Shown: positions 5,235 through 12,604 of the stretch, one piece after another
Layout: every line of letters starts with the position of its first letter
Numbering within the stretch: position 1 is the stretch's first letter
NCBI GenBank assembly: GCA_021846605.1
Contig: JAJZWQ010000090.1
Coordinates: 1 to 13,063, forward strand
Direction: 5' to 3'
Length of the DNA: 13,063 nucleotides
DNA from: Bacillota bacterium
GTDB lineage: Bacteria > Bacillota_E > RBS10-35 > JAJYVN01
Translations under genes and position numbers: made by a program
Notes under the pieces: model-generated
Seen by the model: only the letters and a program-made list of their open reading frames with translations
Databases searched by the model: none
What the model was told of the DNA's origin: nothing

Positions 5235-5466
5235 GTGACGATGGAGGCCCGGCGGACGCGTGGACCCCGAGCGAGCGGGGGAGGGTGCAAGCCCCGCGGT
5301 CGCGCACCGCCAACGGGAACGGCTCCGGAGCAGGCGACAAGCGGCCGTGCCGCGAAAACGCCCGTGTCTGCCGGCGTTAACGGCATCCGAGGCCCCCGCC
5401 CGGCGGGGGGGCGAATTTGGGTGGAATCGCGGGTATTGCCCGTCCCTGTGGGGACGGGCTTTTTTT
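5235..5466 (+). promoter_or_regulatory. T-box riboswitch controlling thrS
   Basis: The leader has the hallmarks of a tRNA-sensing T-box. ACGATGGAGG comes near the 5' end. The distal stem I has GCGGGG (5275-5280) pairing with CCCCGC (5292-5297) around a GAGGGTGCAA loop, with an AGCGAG-type bulge. A GC-rich stem-III-like hairpin lies at about 5391-5411. The T-box sequence GGGTGGAATCGCGGG is at 5419-5433, and an intrinsic terminator follows. ACC at 5306-5308, a Thr codon on the 3' side of stem I, is the best specifier candidate, consistent with thrS downstream, but I have not folded the region rigorously. Uncharged tRNA-Thr should pair by anticodon to the specifier and by NCCA to the TGGA bulge, stabilising the antiterminator and allowing thrS expression. 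The motif reads GGAATCGCGG where GGNACCGCGG is usual. Confidence 0.85.
5438..5466 (+). terminator. Terminator of the thrS T-box
   Basis: GCCCGTCCC (5438-5446) pairs perfectly with GGGACGGGC (5451-5459) around TGTG, followed by seven T (5460-5466). It directly follows the T-box sequence and competes with the antiterminator. Confidence 0.9.
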
Positions 5467-5510
5467 GCGCCTACAGAATTTGCGCCCACAGAAATAGGGA
5501 GGTGGCGGCG

Positions 5511-7469
5511 ATGGCGGTGGCCCTGGTGTTGCCGGACGGTTCGCGACGGGAGGTGGAGCCCGGGACGACGGCCGCCGATGTCGCGGCGGGGATCGGGCGG
5601 CGTCTGGCGGCGGCGGCCGCCGCCGCGCGGGTGGGGGAGCGGGTGGTCGACCTCCACCGGCCGCTGGACGAGGTGGCCGGCACCGGACCGACGCCGTTCG
5701 CCATCCTCACCCCCGCCGATCCACAGGGTCTGGAGGTGCTGCGGCACACCTGCGCCCACGTGCTGGCCCAGGCCGTCCGGCGCCTGTATCCGGGGACGCG
5801 CCTGGCCATCGGCCCGGTGATCGCCGACGGCTTTTACTATGACATGGACGTGCGGAACGCCGCCGGGGCACCCGTCCGCGTGACGGTCGAGGACTTCCCC
5901 GCCATCGAGGGGGAGATGGCGCGCGTCGTCGCCGAGGACTTCCCCGTTCAGCGCGAGCGCTGGGCGCGGGGGGAGGCCCGTGCCCATTTCGAGAAAGACG
6001 GGGAATCCTTCAAGGTCGAGATCATCGACGACCTCCCGGCGGAGGCGGAGATCACCGTGTATCGGCAGGGGGACTTCCATGACCTCTGCCGCGGCCCGCA
6101 CCTGCCGTCGACCGGGCGCATCCCGGCCTTCAAGCTACTGTCTGTGGCCGGGGCGTACTGGCGGGGCGACGAGCGCCGGCCCATGCTGCAGCGGCTGTAT
6201 GGCACGGCGTTTCCGTCCGCCAAGGAACTGGAGCACTACCTCTGGGTGCAGGAGGAGGCCAAAAAGCGCGACCACCGCCGCCTGGGTCCGGAACTGGGGC
6301 TGTTCCTGCTGCGGGACGAGGCCGCCGGCTTCCCGTTCTGGCTGCCCAAGGGCTACGCCATCTGGCGGGCGCTGGAGGACTGGTCGCGGCAACTGCAGGC
6401 GGTGGCGGGCTACCAGGAGGTCAGCACGCCGATCATCATGCGCTCCGAGCTCTGGGAGCGTTCTGGGCACTGGGGCCACTACCAGGAGAACATGTTCACC
6501 CTGGAGCGCGACGAGGAACGCTTCGCGGTCAAGCCGATGAACTGCCCGGCCCACTGCATTGTGTATGGCAGCCAGACCCGCAGCTACCGCGACCTGCCCC
6601 TGCGGCTGGCGGAATACGGGCAACTGGCGCGGTACGAGCGCTCGGGCACCCTCCACGGCCTGTTGCGGGTGCGTTCCCTGCACCAGGACGACGCGCACAT
6701 CTTCGTGACGCCCGACCAGATCCTGGACGAGATCGGTTCGGTGCTGCGGCTGGTGGACATCGTCTACCGCACCCTGGGGATGGCCTACGAGATCCGCCTG
6801 GCCACACGCCCCGAGAGCTTCATCGGCGACCCGGAGGTCTGGGAACGCGCGGAGGCGGACCTGGCCGCGGCCGTGCGCGCCGCCGGCAAGGAGGCCCAGA
6901 TCGCGCCCGGCGACGGGGCCTTCTACGGGCCCAAGCTGGAGTTCCACGTCACCGACGCCCTGGGACGGCGCTGGCAGTGTGCCACGGTGCAGCTGGACTT
7001 CAACTTCCCGGAGCGCTTCGACCTCTGGTACACAGGGGCCGACGGCGAGCGCCACCGGCCGGTGATGATCCACCGGGCGATCTTCGGCACCCTGGAGCGC
7101 TTCATCGGCGTCCTGCTCGAGCACTTCGCCGGGGCCTTCCCGGCCTGGCTGGCGCCGGTGCAGGCCACCGTGCTGCCCATCGCCGACCGCCACCTGCCGG
7201 CGGCCGCGGGCGTGCTGCAGACCCTGCAGGAGGCCGGGTTCCGCGCCGAGATGGACGGGCGGGCCGAGAAGATCGGCTACCGCATCCGCGCGGCCCAGGT
7301 GCAGAAGGTGCCGTACATGCTGATCATGGGGGATCGCGAGCAGGAGGCCGGCACGGTGGCGGTGCGGGAGCGGCACGGGGGAGACCGGGGGACCGTGCCG
7401 GTGGGGGAGTTCGTCTCCCGCCTGCGGAGCGAGGTCGTGGAGCGGCGGCTCGGCACCGAGGCCCCATAG
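5511..7469 (+). CDS. thrS: Threonyl-tRNA synthetase
   Basis: A 652-residue class II synthetase that charges tRNA-Thr. It starts at ATG 5511 behind AGGGAGGTGG (5497-5506); the frame is open upstream, but that is the T-box. Residues 1-65 form the TGS domain. The editing domain (about 70-230) has HTCAH (79-83) and Cys193 in HDLCRGPHLP. The catalytic core (about 260-540) has MNCPAHC with Cys345, GLLRVRSLHQDDAHIF with His396, and MIHRAIFG with His521; these three are the expected zinc ligands that read threonine. The anticodon-binding domain runs from about 545 (WLAPVQATVLPIAD) to the end (PYMLIMGDRE). All hallmarks are intact. HQDD replaces the commoner TQDD before the zinc histidine. The T-box upstream controls it; a tRNA-like gene in the opposite orientation follows 14 nt after the stop. 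Confidence 0.97.
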   Translation: MAVALVLPDGSRREVEPGTTAADVAAGIGRRLAAAAAAARVGERVVDLHRPLDEVAGTGPTPFAILTPADPQGLEVLRHTCAHVLAQAVRRLYPGTRLAIGPVIADGFYYDMDVRNAAGAPVRVTVEDFPAIEGEMARVVAEDFPVQRERWARGEARAHFEKDGESFKVEIIDDLPAEAEITVYRQGDFHDLCRGPHLPSTGRIPAFKLLSVAGAYWRGDERRPMLQRLYGTAFPSAKELEHYLWVQEEAKKRDHRRLGPELGLFLLRDEAAGFPFWLPKGYAIWRALEDWSRQLQAVAGYQEVSTPIIMRSELWERSGHWGHYQENMFTLERDEERFAVKPMNCPAHCIVYGSQTRSYRDLPLRLAEYGQLARYERSGTLHGLLRVRSLHQDDAHIFVTPDQILDEIGSVLRLVDIVYRTLGMAYEIRLATRPESFIGDPEVWERAEADLAAAVRAAGKEAQIAPGDGAFYGPKLEFHVTDALGRRWQCATVQLDFNFPERFDLWYTGADGERHRPVMIHRAIFGTLERFIGVLLEHFAGAFPAWLAPVQATVLPIADRHLPAAAGVLQTLQEAGFRAEMDGRAEKIGYRIRAAQVQKVPYMLIMGDREQEAGTVAVRERHGGDRGTVPVGEFVSRLRSEVVERRLGTEAP

Positions 7470-7483
7470 CCCCATAGCCGGGG

Positions 7484-7554
7484 TGGAGCGGGCGGGCCGA
7501 CTCGAACGGCCCCTCCGGTCTGGTGGACCGGTGCGCTCCCAGCGCCTCGCCCGC
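7484..7554 (-). tRNA. Non-canonical tRNA-Gly-like gene (anticodon loop CCACCAG, ACC)
   Basis: The minus strand folds into a mismatch-free cloverleaf with encoded CCA. The acceptor is GCGGGCG/CGCCCGC (7548-7554 with 7488-7494), then discriminator T (7487) and CCA (7486-7484). The D stem is GCGC/GCGC (7542-7545 with 7533-7536) around only TGGGA. The anticodon stem is CCGGT/ACCGG with loop CCACCAG (7526-7520). The variable region is AGG, and the T arm is GGCCG/CGGCC with a standard TTCGAGT loop. The acceptor end, U73 and C35-C36 match tRNA-Gly identity elements. Deviations are A instead of U8, a five-base D-loop without A14, C instead of the near-universal U33, and A34. These make an ordinary elongator unlikely; it may serve a non-ribosomal role or be a decaying copy. 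A shared reading on the plus strand lacks a T-loop and CCA. Confidence 0.6.
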
Positions 7555-7559
7555 ACACG

Positions 7560-7884
7560 TGAAGAAGGGGTATGCGGCCGCGGTCCGACCGATGCGCCGC
7601 GCCAGCCGTCGCGGAAACCGCGCGGGGAGAGTCCGCATGCACAGGGGCGGCCGTGCTGGGCAGGCGGGACCGTCTTCGCGCACTCCCGCGGGAAGCGGGC
7701 CCCGCCGCAACTCCGCGGAGCCCGCGCCGGCGGGCCTCCGGACGGGCCGCCGCCCGGTGTGTGGCGGTACGGCGCCAACGCCTGCCGTACCACCGGTGGC
7801 GGTCGCCCCGGTCGCCCGGCGGCGAACGCCGTTGGCCGCCCGCGCCCCGGGCGTTCGCGCGCTGCGGCAAGCGGCCTTGCGGTA
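7560..7884. other. Non-coding gap with GC-rich inverted repeats
   Basis: No convincing gene is visible on either strand between the tRNA-like gene and the rpsB promoter. Three pairings stand out. One is an 8-bp long-range stem closing GTATGCGG with CCGCATGC (7570-7577 with 7633-7640, one G-T pair), enclosing a CGCGG-AAA-CCGCG hairpin (7610-7622). The second is GGTACGGC/GCCGTACC (7766-7773 with 7784-7791). The third is GCGAACGCC/GGCGTTCGC (7822-7830 with 7850-7858). None has a T-tract. At this GC content such pairings arise easily, so a structured RNA is possible but unproven. Confidence 0.35.
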
Positions 7885-7893
7885 TGGTATACT
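7885..7893 (+). promoter_or_regulatory. Extended -10 promoter for the rpsB operon
   Basis: TGG followed by TATACT (7888-7893) is an extended -10 element with five of six consensus bases; no good -35 lies at the right distance. It would give an rpsB leader of about 120 nt. Confidence 0.5.
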
Positions 7894-8018: not shown

Positions 8019-8816
8019 TTGTCTGTCGTGTCCATGAAGCAGTTGCTGGAGGCCGGCGTCCATTTCGGGCATCACACGCGCCGCTGGAACCCCAAGATGC
8101 GCCCCTACATTTTCACCGAGCGCAACGACATCTACATCATCGACCTGCAGAAGACCCTGCGCATGATCGAGGACGCGTACCGCTACACGCGTGACCTGAT
8201 GGCCGACCACCCCAACGGCAAGATCCTGTTCGTCGGCACCAAGAAGCAGGCCCAGGACAGCATCGCCGAAGAGGCCGCGCGCTGCTCGATGCCCTACGTG
8301 AACCAGCGCTGGCTGGGCGGCATGCTCACCAACTTCTCCACGATCCGCATGCGCATCGACCGTTTGCAGGAGTTGGAGCAGATGGAGGAGACCGGCATCC
8401 TGGCCCGGTTGCCCAAGAAAGAGGTGGCGCTGCTCCAGGCGGAGCGGGCCAAGCTGGATAAGTATGTCGGCGGGATCCGCACCATGCGCGAGTTGCCCGT
8501 GGCGCTGTGGGTGGTCGACCCGCGCAAGGAGCACATCGCGGTGACCGAGGCCCGCAAGCTCCGGATCCCCATCATCGGCATCGTGGACACCAACTGCGAC
8601 CCCGACGAGATCGACTGCCTGATCCCCGGCAACGACGACGCGATCCGGGCCGTGCGTCTCATCACAGCGCGCATCGCCGACGCCGTGGTGGAGGCCAGGC
8701 AGGGCGAGGAGCTCAGCGAGGCCACCCCGTCGTCCGGGGACGGCGAGGCACCGGTCGCCACCGCCCCCGCGGCCGGGGAGTCGAGGGTGGAGGCGGGAGC
8801 GGAGGCCGGGGCCTAG
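8019..8816 (+). CDS. rpsB: 30S ribosomal protein S2
   Basis: The 265-residue small-subunit protein, recognised by [23 protein letters not shown] (5 onward), [38 protein letters not shown] and the late block [30 protein letters not shown]. The TTG start at 8019 is chosen because GGGGAGGG (8003-8010) sits eight bases upstream and the encoded [12 protein letters not shown] matches the family N-terminus; ATG 8034 would leave out the usual first residues, and the open frame back to 7572 has no S2 similarity. After about residue 230 the chain is an acidic, Ala/Gly/Glu-rich tail, common in S2 of high-GC bacteria. It heads the rpsB-tsf-pyrH-frr-uppS cluster. Confidence 0.97.
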
Positions 8817-11113: not shown

Positions 11114-11869
11114 ATGCAACTCCCGGCGGACATGGCGGCAGGCGGGGAGTTGCCCCGCCACATCGCCATCATCATGGACGGCAATCGGCGGTGGGCGCAG
11201 CGCCACGGCAAGCCCCCGTTGGCCGGGCACCGCGCCGGCGTGGAGAACGTCCGCATGGCCGTCCGCCTGTGCTCGGACCTCGGGGTCGGCTACCTGACCT
11301 GTTACGCTTTCTCCACCGAGAACTGGAAGCGCAGCGCCACCGAGGTCCAGGGCCTCTGGCGCCTGCTGATCGAGTTCCTCGCCTCCGACCTCCCCGAATT
11401 GATGGCGCGGGGCGTGCGGCTACGGGTCATCGGCGACCGCGCCGGCCTTCCCCTGTTCGTGCGTCAGGCGGTCAACTCCGCCGAGACGGCGACGACCCGC
11501 GGCCGGAGGCTGTCGCTTCTGCTGGCGCTCAACTACGGCTCCCGCCAGGAGATCGCCGGCGCGGCGCGCGCCCTCTGCCGCGAGGTGGCCGAGGGGCGTC
11601 TGCGGCCCGAGGATGTCGACGAGCATGCCCTGGAGACCCACCTCAGCACTGCCGGGATCCCGGACCCGGACCTGGTCATCCGCACCAGCGGGGAGCAGCG
11701 GCTGAGCAACTTCCTGCTCTGGCAGGTGGCATACAGCGAGTTGTGGGTGACGCCCGCCTGCTGGCCAGATTTCACCCGCGACGACTTTCTCGCCGCCCTG
11801 GACGATTACGGCAAGCGGCACCGGCGCTTCGGCGGTTCAGACGCCCAGAGGTCAGGACCCCCCGGCTAA
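11114..11869 (+). CDS. uppS: Undecaprenyl diphosphate synthase, C-terminus altered by transposon end
   Basis: A 251-residue cis-prenyltransferase making the C55 lipid carrier for cell-wall synthesis. Signature blocks are HIAIIMDGNRRWAQRHG (16-32; Asp22 binds Mg-diphosphate), GHRAGVENVR, YLTCYAFSTENWKR, LALNYGSRQEI and PDLVIRTSGEQRLSNFLLWQVAYSELW. ATG 11114 is chosen because GGGTGA (11103-11108) lies five bases upstream and the N-terminus has normal length; GTG 11105 is possible. The family usually ends near RRFGG; here ten further residues (SDAQRSGPPG) follow. The TAA stop (11867-11869) lies in the loop of the transposon palindrome. The enzyme is probably still functional because the added tail lies beyond the conserved core. 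cdsA, the usual next gene, is displaced by insertion debris. Confidence 0.95.
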   Translation: MQLPADMAAGGELPRHIAIIMDGNRRWAQRHGKPPLAGHRAGVENVRMAVRLCSDLGVGYLTCYAFSTENWKRSATEVQGLWRLLIEFLASDLPELMARGVRLRVIGDRAGLPLFVRQAVNSAETATTRGRRLSLLLALNYGSRQEIAGAARALCREVAEGRLRPEDVDEHALETHLSTAGIPDPDLVIRTSGEQRLSNFLLWQVAYSELWVTPACWPDFTRDDFLAALDDYGKRHRRFGGSDAQRSGPPG

Positions 11870-11877
11870 AGCCGGGG
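11860..11877. repeat. Element end palindrome at uppS 3' end
   Basis: CCCCGGC (11860-11866), a TAAA loop and GCCGGGG (11871-11877). It sits at the 3' side of the minus-strand tnpB relic, where IS200/IS605-type elements have their right-end hairpin and the 3' end of the guide-RNA scaffold. It shares the GGCTAAAGCC core with the hairpin at 937-956. Confidence 0.65.
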
Positions 11878-12604
11878 CTTGCGGCCGTGGGATTGCGCCG
11901 CGATAGGCCGCCTGCTTGCGACCCCCCGGTCCCACGTATGGCAAGGCTGGCAAGGTGGTTGGCTCCGATGTTCCTGGCCGCATTCAGGTCCGCATGGAGA
12001 GACAAGCCGCATTGCTGGCAACAGGAGTCGCCCCGACTCGGACGGTTGGCCTTCTGGCGGTGCCCGCACCGACTGCACTTCTGGCTGGTGCAGCGGGGGG
12101 CCACCGTGGCGATGGCCACGCGCGCCAAAGCAGTCTTGTGGCGCGAGAAGCCGAGCAGGCGGGCGAAGGACCACGAGCGCAGGCGTCACCGCTGTCGGTG
12201 GCGTCCCTTCAGGCATGTGCGGATGTCGGTCAGGTCCGCGAAGGCCAGGGTTGTGCCGGGCTCCACGGACTGGACCAGGCGCCTGGACAGCACGTGGTCG
12301 CAGTCCCGGCGGAAACGTTCCTGGCGGCCGGACACCTGGCGCCGGCGCCGCTTGGCCGACCGTGTGCCTCTCGCCTGAAGAGCACGGCGCCGGCGCAACG
12401 AACGGGCCCCGATCTCCCGCGCCGTTGTGGCACGTTGGGCCGCATCGGTCTGGGGGTGGATCTCGACGCCCTGGACGTGGGGCAGGTCCCCGCCCACAGC
12501 GCAGACGCGGTTGAACGAGGCGGTGTACTGCGCGATGATTTCGCGCAGCGCGGCCTCCGCGTCCAGGCCTGCACCCGAAGTCGGAGTGTCAAGTCCATGT
12601 TCAT
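11860..12604 (-). pseudogene. tnpB: Decayed tnpB (IS200/IS605 OrfB), copy 2
   Basis: A minus-strand relic with several lesions. The start ATG (12604 or 12598) encodes MDLTLRLRVQA, then a one-base frameshift is needed to reach IIAQYTASFNRVCAV. About 100 residues, including the whole RuvC-I region, are missing between HPQTD and TAREIGARSLRRRRALQ. The catalytic-Glu motif reads AFADLTDIR, where copy 1 has GEDLTDIR. A TGA at 12186-12188 interrupts it. The remaining frame is then open with RSWSFARLLGF and an intact zinc ribbon CSRCGH-(about 15)-CQQCG-LSLHADLNAARNI. No stop follows inside the element: the frame reads through the end palindrome into antisense uppS to a TGA at 11772. It is close kin of the gene at 1-913, with 74 of 75 bases identical at 12263-12337 versus 178-252. 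It cannot make a nuclease. Confidence 0.85.

Follow-up and report, generated by a model that had tools for sequence, protein, structure and literature searches.

We analysed a 13,063-nt stretch of DNA (the window) that carries a small tRNA-like gene between thrS and rpsB. ARAGORN reports one tRNA gene in the window, a tRNA-Gly(ACC) located exactly at 7484-7554 on the minus strand. This gene, its parts and the features around it are as follows:

7484..7554 (-): atypical tRNA-Gly-like gene, 71 nt including CCA, recognized by ARAGORN and supported by homologues in three genomes (G001, G074 and G071) and by covariation
7548..7554 (-): acceptor stem 5' strand, GCGGGCG, pairing with 7488-7494; 28 of 28 cells paired in the four copies
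7546..7547 (-): A8 G9, where U8 is expected; base 8 is A in three copies and C in one
7533..7545 (-): D arm, GCGC-UGGGA-GCGC, with U rather than A14 as the first loop base; two of its pairs changed at both positions across the four copies
7515..7531 (-): anticodon arm, CCGGU-CCACCAG-ACCGG; two pairs changed on both sides
7522..7524 (-): anticodon ACC, with C33 before it and A37 after it; the other copies have ACC, GCC and CCC
7495..7511 (-): T arm, GGCCG-UUCGAGU-CGGCC, with C-G at 51-63 against the usual G-C
7488..7494 (-): acceptor stem 3' strand, CGCCCGC
7484..7487 (-): U73 and the encoded CCA
5511..7469 (+): thrS, a convergent neighbour in the window only
7569..7574 (-): weak -10-like CATACC, 20 nt upstream of the gene, seen by eye and taken as a lead only
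7888-7893 (+): TATACT, a likely -10 element of rpsB
8034..8816 (+): rpsB (ribosomal protein S2, named from sequence), start codon assumed; the conserved divergent neighbour

A single A joins the D and anticodon arms and AGG joins the anticodon and T arms, and the whole forms a 7-4-5-5 cloverleaf with Watson-Crick pairing at 21 of 21 stem positions. The perfect stems and encoded CCA described in an earlier note on this DNA are thus confirmed, as is its description of this copy as lacking U8, A14 and U33 and having a D-loop of five bases; we read A8, U14 (the first base of the D-loop) and C33. Free folding also gave a cloverleaf (-42.5 kcal/mol; z, -2.64), in which the D, anticodon and T stems are each one pair longer and the acceptor stem has six pairs; 2 of 200 shuffled sequences folded equally well. 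As a control for chance cloverleafs, we ran ARAGORN on 10.45 Mb of first-order Markov sequence with the dinucleotide make-up of the window. It returned 20 matches (~0.025 per window), of which one had a terminal CCA, three were Gly and none was Gly with CCA. The Rfam tRNA model RF00005 did not report the gene, either in the window at an E value of ≤1 or in a 161-nt stretch at an E value of ≤10.

The gene ends 14 nt past the thrS stop codon, on the opposite strand, and 479 nt separate its 5' end from the start assumed for rpsB. A promoter search at the window gene found no consensus promoter. By eye, CATAGC (G001) and CATATC (G074) lie 27 nt upstream of the gene. Elsewhere in the window, the thrS leader (5335-5467, plus strand) resembles a T-box with a terminator after it, with an RF00230 score of 26.9 bits, below the gathering score of 93. 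The ends of the window carry related repeats (82% direct, 71% inverted; 8-335/12075-12420 and 572-984/12602-13056), and a frame at 11772-12128 resembles, by eye, the end of an IS200/IS605-type TnpB.

Three further copies of the gene were found. The first (C55:4378-4446, minus strand) is in G001 and is 80% identical to the window copy over 71 columns (E value, 6e-10). The second (C183:11954-12023, plus strand), in G074, came from a DNA search across the 154 class genomes, and the third (C116:1133-1198, minus strand), in G071, came from a covariance model of the other three copies run on the class genomes. The copies, with the window copy first, are 71, 69, 70 and 66 nt long. ARAGORN recognizes the window copy and calls the G074 copy an unassigned tRNA; the G001 and G071 copies go unrecognized, and RF00005 does not list the copies in G001, G074 or G071 at an E value of ≤1. 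With model R2, applied to 16 chosen genomes, the three relatives scored 93.5, 89.6 and 78.7 bits and the best other match scored 51.4 bits; R2 was built from the copies themselves, so that the high scores and part of this gap arise by construction. With model R1, which lacked the G071 copy, that copy scored 56.0 bits versus 56.9 bits for the best ordinary tRNA-Gly.

Across the class, copies occur in at least 3 of 154 genomes among the matches listed, under strict filters with which weak copies may be missed. At an E value of ≤0.001, the DNA search matched nine genomes, of which only G001 and G074 have matches that span the gene. The partial matches in the other seven (G003, G034, G036, G044, G089, G109 and G151; 23 to 46 bases) were not counted as copies; the strongest, in G003:C164 (2e-6), covers the 5' half of the gene, and ARAGORN, which also misses two real copies, found nothing at any of the seven sites. 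A 23-bit match in G072, 1.2 kb upstream of rpsB, was dropped because it reads as coding sequence. The rpsB loci of 28 relatives, taken with up to 1.5 kb on each side, contained no other copy (best score, 17.9 bits; no ARAGORN call). In a sample of 398 genomes from the phylum, where at most 12 candidates per genome were scored and sensitivity was limited accordingly, only the G001 copy exceeded 55 bits. Plasmid DNA and phage DNA each gave one weak partial match. An exact 22-base pattern from the 5' part occurred in five viral contigs; the rest of the gene was not shared and ARAGORN found nothing there, and we attribute these matches to chance in GC-rich DNA. A 25-base pattern from the 3' part had no match in the viral contigs.

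We used the four copies to look for selection at the RNA level. Of the 81 cells counted, 80 hold standard pairs. Both partners have changed in 6 of the 21 pairs: two each in the D and anticodon stems and a single pair each in the acceptor and T stems. No shuffle out of 500 reached six such changes, in a test that ignores the relatedness of the copies; slid structures paired at 30 to 49%, with 0 or 1 such pairs. An alternative structure with 20 pairs gave 79 of 80 cells paired. The fifth anticodon pair falls in a gap column and was counted in one copy only; it is standard in G074 and G071 and a C-A mismatch, outside the 81 cells, in G001. The alignment was fitted to the model and leans toward the structure, yet each copy still folds into a cloverleaf alone. 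One T-stem pair of the G071 copy reads U-G on the minus strand, and for this reason the minus strand is favoured. A small protein encoded on the plus strand was rejected, since copies of 71, 69, 70 and 66 nt keep no frame. We conclude that the gene is almost certainly a member of a real RNA family under selection. The recent pseudogene that the earlier note had put forward as an alternative does not fit these data: the fold is kept in all three homologues through compensatory changes, and they are 67 to 81% identical to the window copy, compared with 54 to 56% for the ordinary tRNA-Gly of the relatives. Two of the points on which that note had let its case depend, conservation in relatives and intact stems in the homologues, were thereby tested, with homologues found and the fold retained.

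The gene was originally described as lying antisense to, and directly after, thrS. That is true of the window, but the neighbour that is conserved is rpsB and not thrS. Divergence from rpsB is common to the window, G001 (L086) and G074 (L097); the G071 copy is not adjacent to rpsB and instead adjoins a polysaccharide deacetylase-like frame (named by eye). Among the genomes searched, the nearest relatives of the window ThrS are in three metagenome-assembled genomes labelled Bacillota bacterium (L001 to L003; 74, 73 and 74% identity), the first of which is G001, and none of these three thrS loci contains a copy of the gene detectable with ARAGORN or with model R2 (best score, 15.4 bits). A threonine-related role via thrS was therefore rejected.

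We next compared the bases that serve charging with those that serve decoding. According to passages of PMC9976931, the bacterial glycine determinants include G1-C72, C2-G71, U73 and C35/C36. G1-C72, C2-G71 and U73 are present in all four copies, and in each anticodon loop an A follows NCC; in G071, where the loop reads CCCAAA, the assignment of C35/C36 depends on the loop numbering. U8, in contrast, is absent from all four, so that the U8-A14 pair is gone throughout. The first D-loop base (position 14) is U in the window, G in G071 and A in G001 and G074. The anticodon is preceded by C in the window, A in G001, C in G074 and G in G071, and never by U. Hence, of the deviations first described for the window copy, loss of U8 and U33 extends to the whole family, whereas loss of A14 is confined to the window and G071. 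The D-loops have 3 to 5 bases, depending on copy and fold, and contain GG in all four copies (in G071, by free fold). The G074 and G071 copies have anticodon loops of 6 bases, as does the G001 copy when its C-A mismatch is assigned to the stem; free folding gives the G001 loop 8 bases.

The T stem differs as well. Passages of PMC4052509 name G49-U65 and G51-C63 as strong EF-Tu pairs and describe their replacement in the staphylococcal nonproteinogenic tRNA-Gly. All four atypical copies have G49-C65 and either C51-G63 or U51-G63, and none has G49-U65 or G51-C63. For comparison, we took the 38 distinct tRNA-Gly calls in the fetched loci and dropped one that lacked CCA; among the remaining 37, a nonrandom set that came from searches with tRNA-like sequences and includes two odd genes (L291 and L108), U8 is present in 37, A14 in 37, U33 in 35, G51-C63 in 36 and G49-U65 in 29. 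Because G49-C65 also occurs in 8 of the 37, the change at 51-63 is the clearer sign. The gene in L108 (G038; 1501-1574) is an otherwise ordinary tRNA-Gly(UCC) with C33 in place of U33. The atypical family thus resembles ordinary bacterial tRNA-Gly in the type of acceptor stem, U73, CCA, the UUCGA T-loop and the glycine anticodon and differs from it in lacking U8 and U33, in the loss of A14 from two copies, in being shorter and in not being listed by RF00005. The fetched stretches of G001 contain 41 tRNAs by ARAGORN, including ordinary tRNA-Gly with anticodons CCC, GCC and UCC; those of G074 contain a GCC gene and the odd UCC gene (L291), and those of G071 contain CCC and UCC genes. The original suggestion of a glycylatable but poorly ribosomal tRNA accords with the sequences, with glycine identity kept and U8 and U33 lost in all four copies, and we consider it quite probable that the atypical tRNA is glycylated and mainly nonribosomal.

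Three readings in which the gene is not a dedicated glycine carrier have to be weighed against this. That it is a decaying duplicate, a remnant of a mobile-element attachment site or a chance cloverleaf in GC-rich DNA is hard to credit: six pairs have changed on both sides, random sequence rarely yields a match at the rate given above, and identity is 67 to 87% within the family versus 54 to 62% to the ordinary tRNA-Gly of the carriers. The patchy distribution would fit such a reading, as would the existence in G001 and G074 of two sequences that resemble tRNA 3' remnants. These two (L271, G001:C7:1932-1996; L279, G074:C31:288-354) have ordinary-looking 3' parts and odd 5' halves and, judged by eye, are perhaps attachment-site remnants. 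For the gene itself such an origin was rejected, since its T arm differs from that of every ordinary tRNA-Gly seen in the carriers; the acceptor stem of the G071 copy is the same as that of the ordinary tRNA-Gly there. A working but odd translational tRNA-Gly, such as a reader of GGU or a suppressor with a short anticodon loop, would account for the glycine anticodons of all four copies and for the A14 kept in two, and the C33 in L108 provides a precedent in the class. It is nevertheless very unlikely, given that neither U8 nor U33 is found in any copy, that CCC, GCC and UCC tRNA-Gly are already present in G001, that the length of the anticodon loop varies among copies and that RF00005 lists none of them in three genomes. 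An uncharged regulatory tRNA-like RNA, acting as part of a longer transcript or as a regulator of the rpsB operon, is suggested by the position divergent to rpsB, which is conserved in three genomes. The precedent is tRNA-Other of Bacillus cereus, which, as described in PMC3399842, is considered nonfunctional in translation and is a tRNA-like element within a larger regulatory RNA next to a genomic island. The atypical family differs from it in keeping glycine identity and in lying by rpsB in three of four copies. We regard the regulatory reading as unlikely, since the constant parts of the RNA are those used by the synthetase together with the CCA end and since the G071 gene is not beside rpsB.

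The earlier note had drawn a parallel with staphylococci. Staphylococcus aureus tRNA-Gly genes whose products are charged, poorly recognized by EF-Tu and linked to pentaglycine bridges are described in passages of PMC8007984 and PMC4052509. The family described here resembles that nonproteinogenic set in being extra to the ordinary one, in keeping glycine identity, in having altered EF-Tu determinants in the T stem and in occurring in genomes with FemX-type enzymes. The deviations themselves are different. In the S. aureus copies, by the same partial accounts (PMC4052509 and PMC8007984), GG18-19 is replaced by UU or CU and the T stem has A49-U65/A51-U63. The present family keeps the D-loop GG and lacks U8 and U33, and two of its copies also lack A14; its D-loops have 3 to 5 bases, anticodon loops of 6 bases occur in G074 and G071, and the 51-63 pair is C-G or U-G. 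We tested for replacement of GG18-19 and did not find it, and hence we do not class the family as staphylococcal in type; the parallel is apt in its logic and does not extend to the deviations. A full-text literature search, in which few subscription papers were covered, listed no report of such a family outside staphylococci.

To relate the gene to a possible consumer, we determined its distribution and that of the FemAB family (PF02388). In a tree of RpsB, the window groups with seven relatives in a single clade (support, 99/94), and four of these eight are carriers; no gene was found in G002, G003, G072 or G073. The carrier label requires 3 changes on the tree, and 52 of 500 label shuffles cluster equally. 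G003 groups with G074 (87/80), and the 1.2 kb upstream of its rpsB contain no gene, which may have been lost, moved or left unassembled. The assemblies are uneven, with 30 tRNA matches in G003, 46 in G002 and 41 each in G072 and G073. In G072, a close relative of G071, the 1,101-base stretch around the G071 copy was matched only by short hits within its last 35 bases.

FemAB proteins occur in all seven clade relatives' genomes, including the carriers G001, G074 and G071, and in 37 of 154 class genomes, two sets that overlap. One G001 FemAB protein (L210:1384-2577) has as its nearest PDB entry 6SNR, a lipid II:glycine glycyltransferase that we take to be the S. aureus enzyme (178.5 bits), and scores 117 bits against the best PDB entry named FemX; entries of that name are, presumably, mostly the alanyl enzyme of Weissella. 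NCBIfam models gave only matches below their cutoffs. Two FemAB sets in the clade loci that we compared are ~60 to 65% and 44 to 47% identical to the L210 protein. FemAB is also present in the four clade genomes in which the gene was not found, and FemX there consequently needs no atypical tRNA. FemAB presence follows the clade, so that the co-occurrence of gene and FemAB is confounded by descent. Gene and femAB lie on different contigs in G001, G074 and G071. In G001 (L210, C47) and G074 (L209, C2), femAB comes immediately after a polysaccharide deacetylase-like frame (by eye) that is encoded on the same strand. We considered the deacetylase beside the G071 copy as a link to femX and dropped it, as it is only 37 to 40% identical to the femAB-linked ones; it is closer (50%) to one from G002, in whose fetched locus there is no femAB match. 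Separately, L216 (G002:C117) and L209 give identical scores for femAB and the deacetylase-like frame, and the G002 bin may therefore be contaminated.

The explanation that we favour is that the gene belongs to a small family of additional tRNA-Gly genes, restricted to the clade, that would serve as glycine carriers outside translation and feed FemX, a reading to which we assign a probability of roughly 0.5. FemX and peptidoglycan as the consumer is, taken by itself, about an even bet, and the link would be one of function and lineage, with no tight genomic association. Gly-tRNA feeds FemX-type enzymes outside the ribosome, as passages of PMC4052509 describe. On the favoured reading, the gene would be transcribed away from rpsB and its transcript trimmed at the 5' end by RNase P, with CCA already encoded. 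Glycyl-tRNA synthetase would read G1-C72, C2-G71, U73 and C35/C36 and load glycine. Loss of U33, together with the unusual core and a T stem that lacks G51-C63, would keep the product off the ribosome and weaken its binding to EF-Tu. U73, which protects proteinogenic and nonproteinogenic Gly-tRNA from DTD according to part of PMC6097841, would guard the product against D-aminoacyl-tRNA deacylase. The FemX-type transferases of the clade would then place glycine from the atypical tRNA on lipid II. This reading draws on the existence of the family, its covariation, its retained determinants, the ordinary tRNA-Gly in one carrier and FemAB in seven clade genomes, and from these we infer transcription, charging, exclusion from the ribosome and use by FemX.

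A different consumer is suggested by a set of tRNA-Gly-like genes beside mom. Mom adds a glycine-derived group to adenine, and we know of no identified donor for this phage Mu-type modification. In G074, an odd tRNA-Gly(UCC) (C19; L291:941-1016, plus strand; 29.6 bits with RF00005) ends just before a match to the Mom family (PF25680; E value, 1.7e-42; frame from 1018), and the two may overlap, depending on where mom starts. We fetched 18 phage records around mom, a subset of 249 with a Mom match; in 5 of the 18, which come from two phage groups, a tRNA-Gly-like gene lies beside or overlaps mom. The Microbacterium phages Blett and MenE have identical, annotated tRNA-Gly(CCC) genes by mom, and in the Arthrobacter phages GravityBall, BarretLemon and Sicarius2 the gene by mom is unannotated. 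The five phage genes are as follows:

L332:3163-3237 and L343:2163-2237 (-): mom-linked tRNA-Gly-like genes
L334:3083-3153, L344:2083-2153 and L337:2044-2114 (+): mom-linked tRNA-Gly-like genes

ARAGORN finds the Sicarius2 gene and misses the GravityBall gene. The three Arthrobacter copies have 63 of 63 cells paired and three pairs changed on both sides, and all five phage genes have A8 and keep U33. Model R2 does not detect the mom-linked genes. A scan of the mom loci gave loose extra matches in L331 (one), L333 (two, overlapping), L332 and L343 (one each), which we took as chance, 1.5 being expected in 19 loci; the same scan missed the L291 gene and had no match in 11 of the 18 phage records. 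A literature search found no paper on a link between tRNA-Gly and Mom.

These observations suggest Gly-tRNA as a donor for Mom. They also bear on whether the atypical family might be a dedicated glycyl-tRNA for a consumer other than FemX, for instance DNA modification of the Mom type, a different peptide ligase dependent on aminoacyl-tRNA or an unknown transferase. Such a role would be in keeping with the retained glycine identity, with the Mom-family gene beside the odd tRNA-Gly of G074 and with the genes that adjoin mom in some phages. However, the family lies beside rpsB and not mom in the window, G001 and G074, and tblastn of the window and the bacterial loci examined found no Mom match except in L291; we consider another consumer improbable. 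A broader and still doubtful proposal, to which we would give some weight, is that bacteria and phages repeatedly evolve decoding-disabled tRNA-Gly for nonribosomal transfer, with FemX served here and a parallel set serving Mom. Under repeated evolution, the anticodon loop would serve the synthetase only, and Mom would take the glycine-derived group from Gly-tRNA.

If the favoured reading, of glycine carriers that feed FemX, is true, this clade would be a further lineage, beyond the staphylococci, with tRNAs reserved for delivery of glycine off the ribosome. The loss of U8 and U33 together with the retention of synthetase determinants would separate the needs of charging from those of decoding, and the four copies would provide a natural set of variants for this purpose. 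Given that RF00005 is silent on the family and that ARAGORN misses two of the four copies, similar genes elsewhere may be overlooked. If the Mom lead also holds, the donor of phage Mu-type DNA modification would become directly testable.
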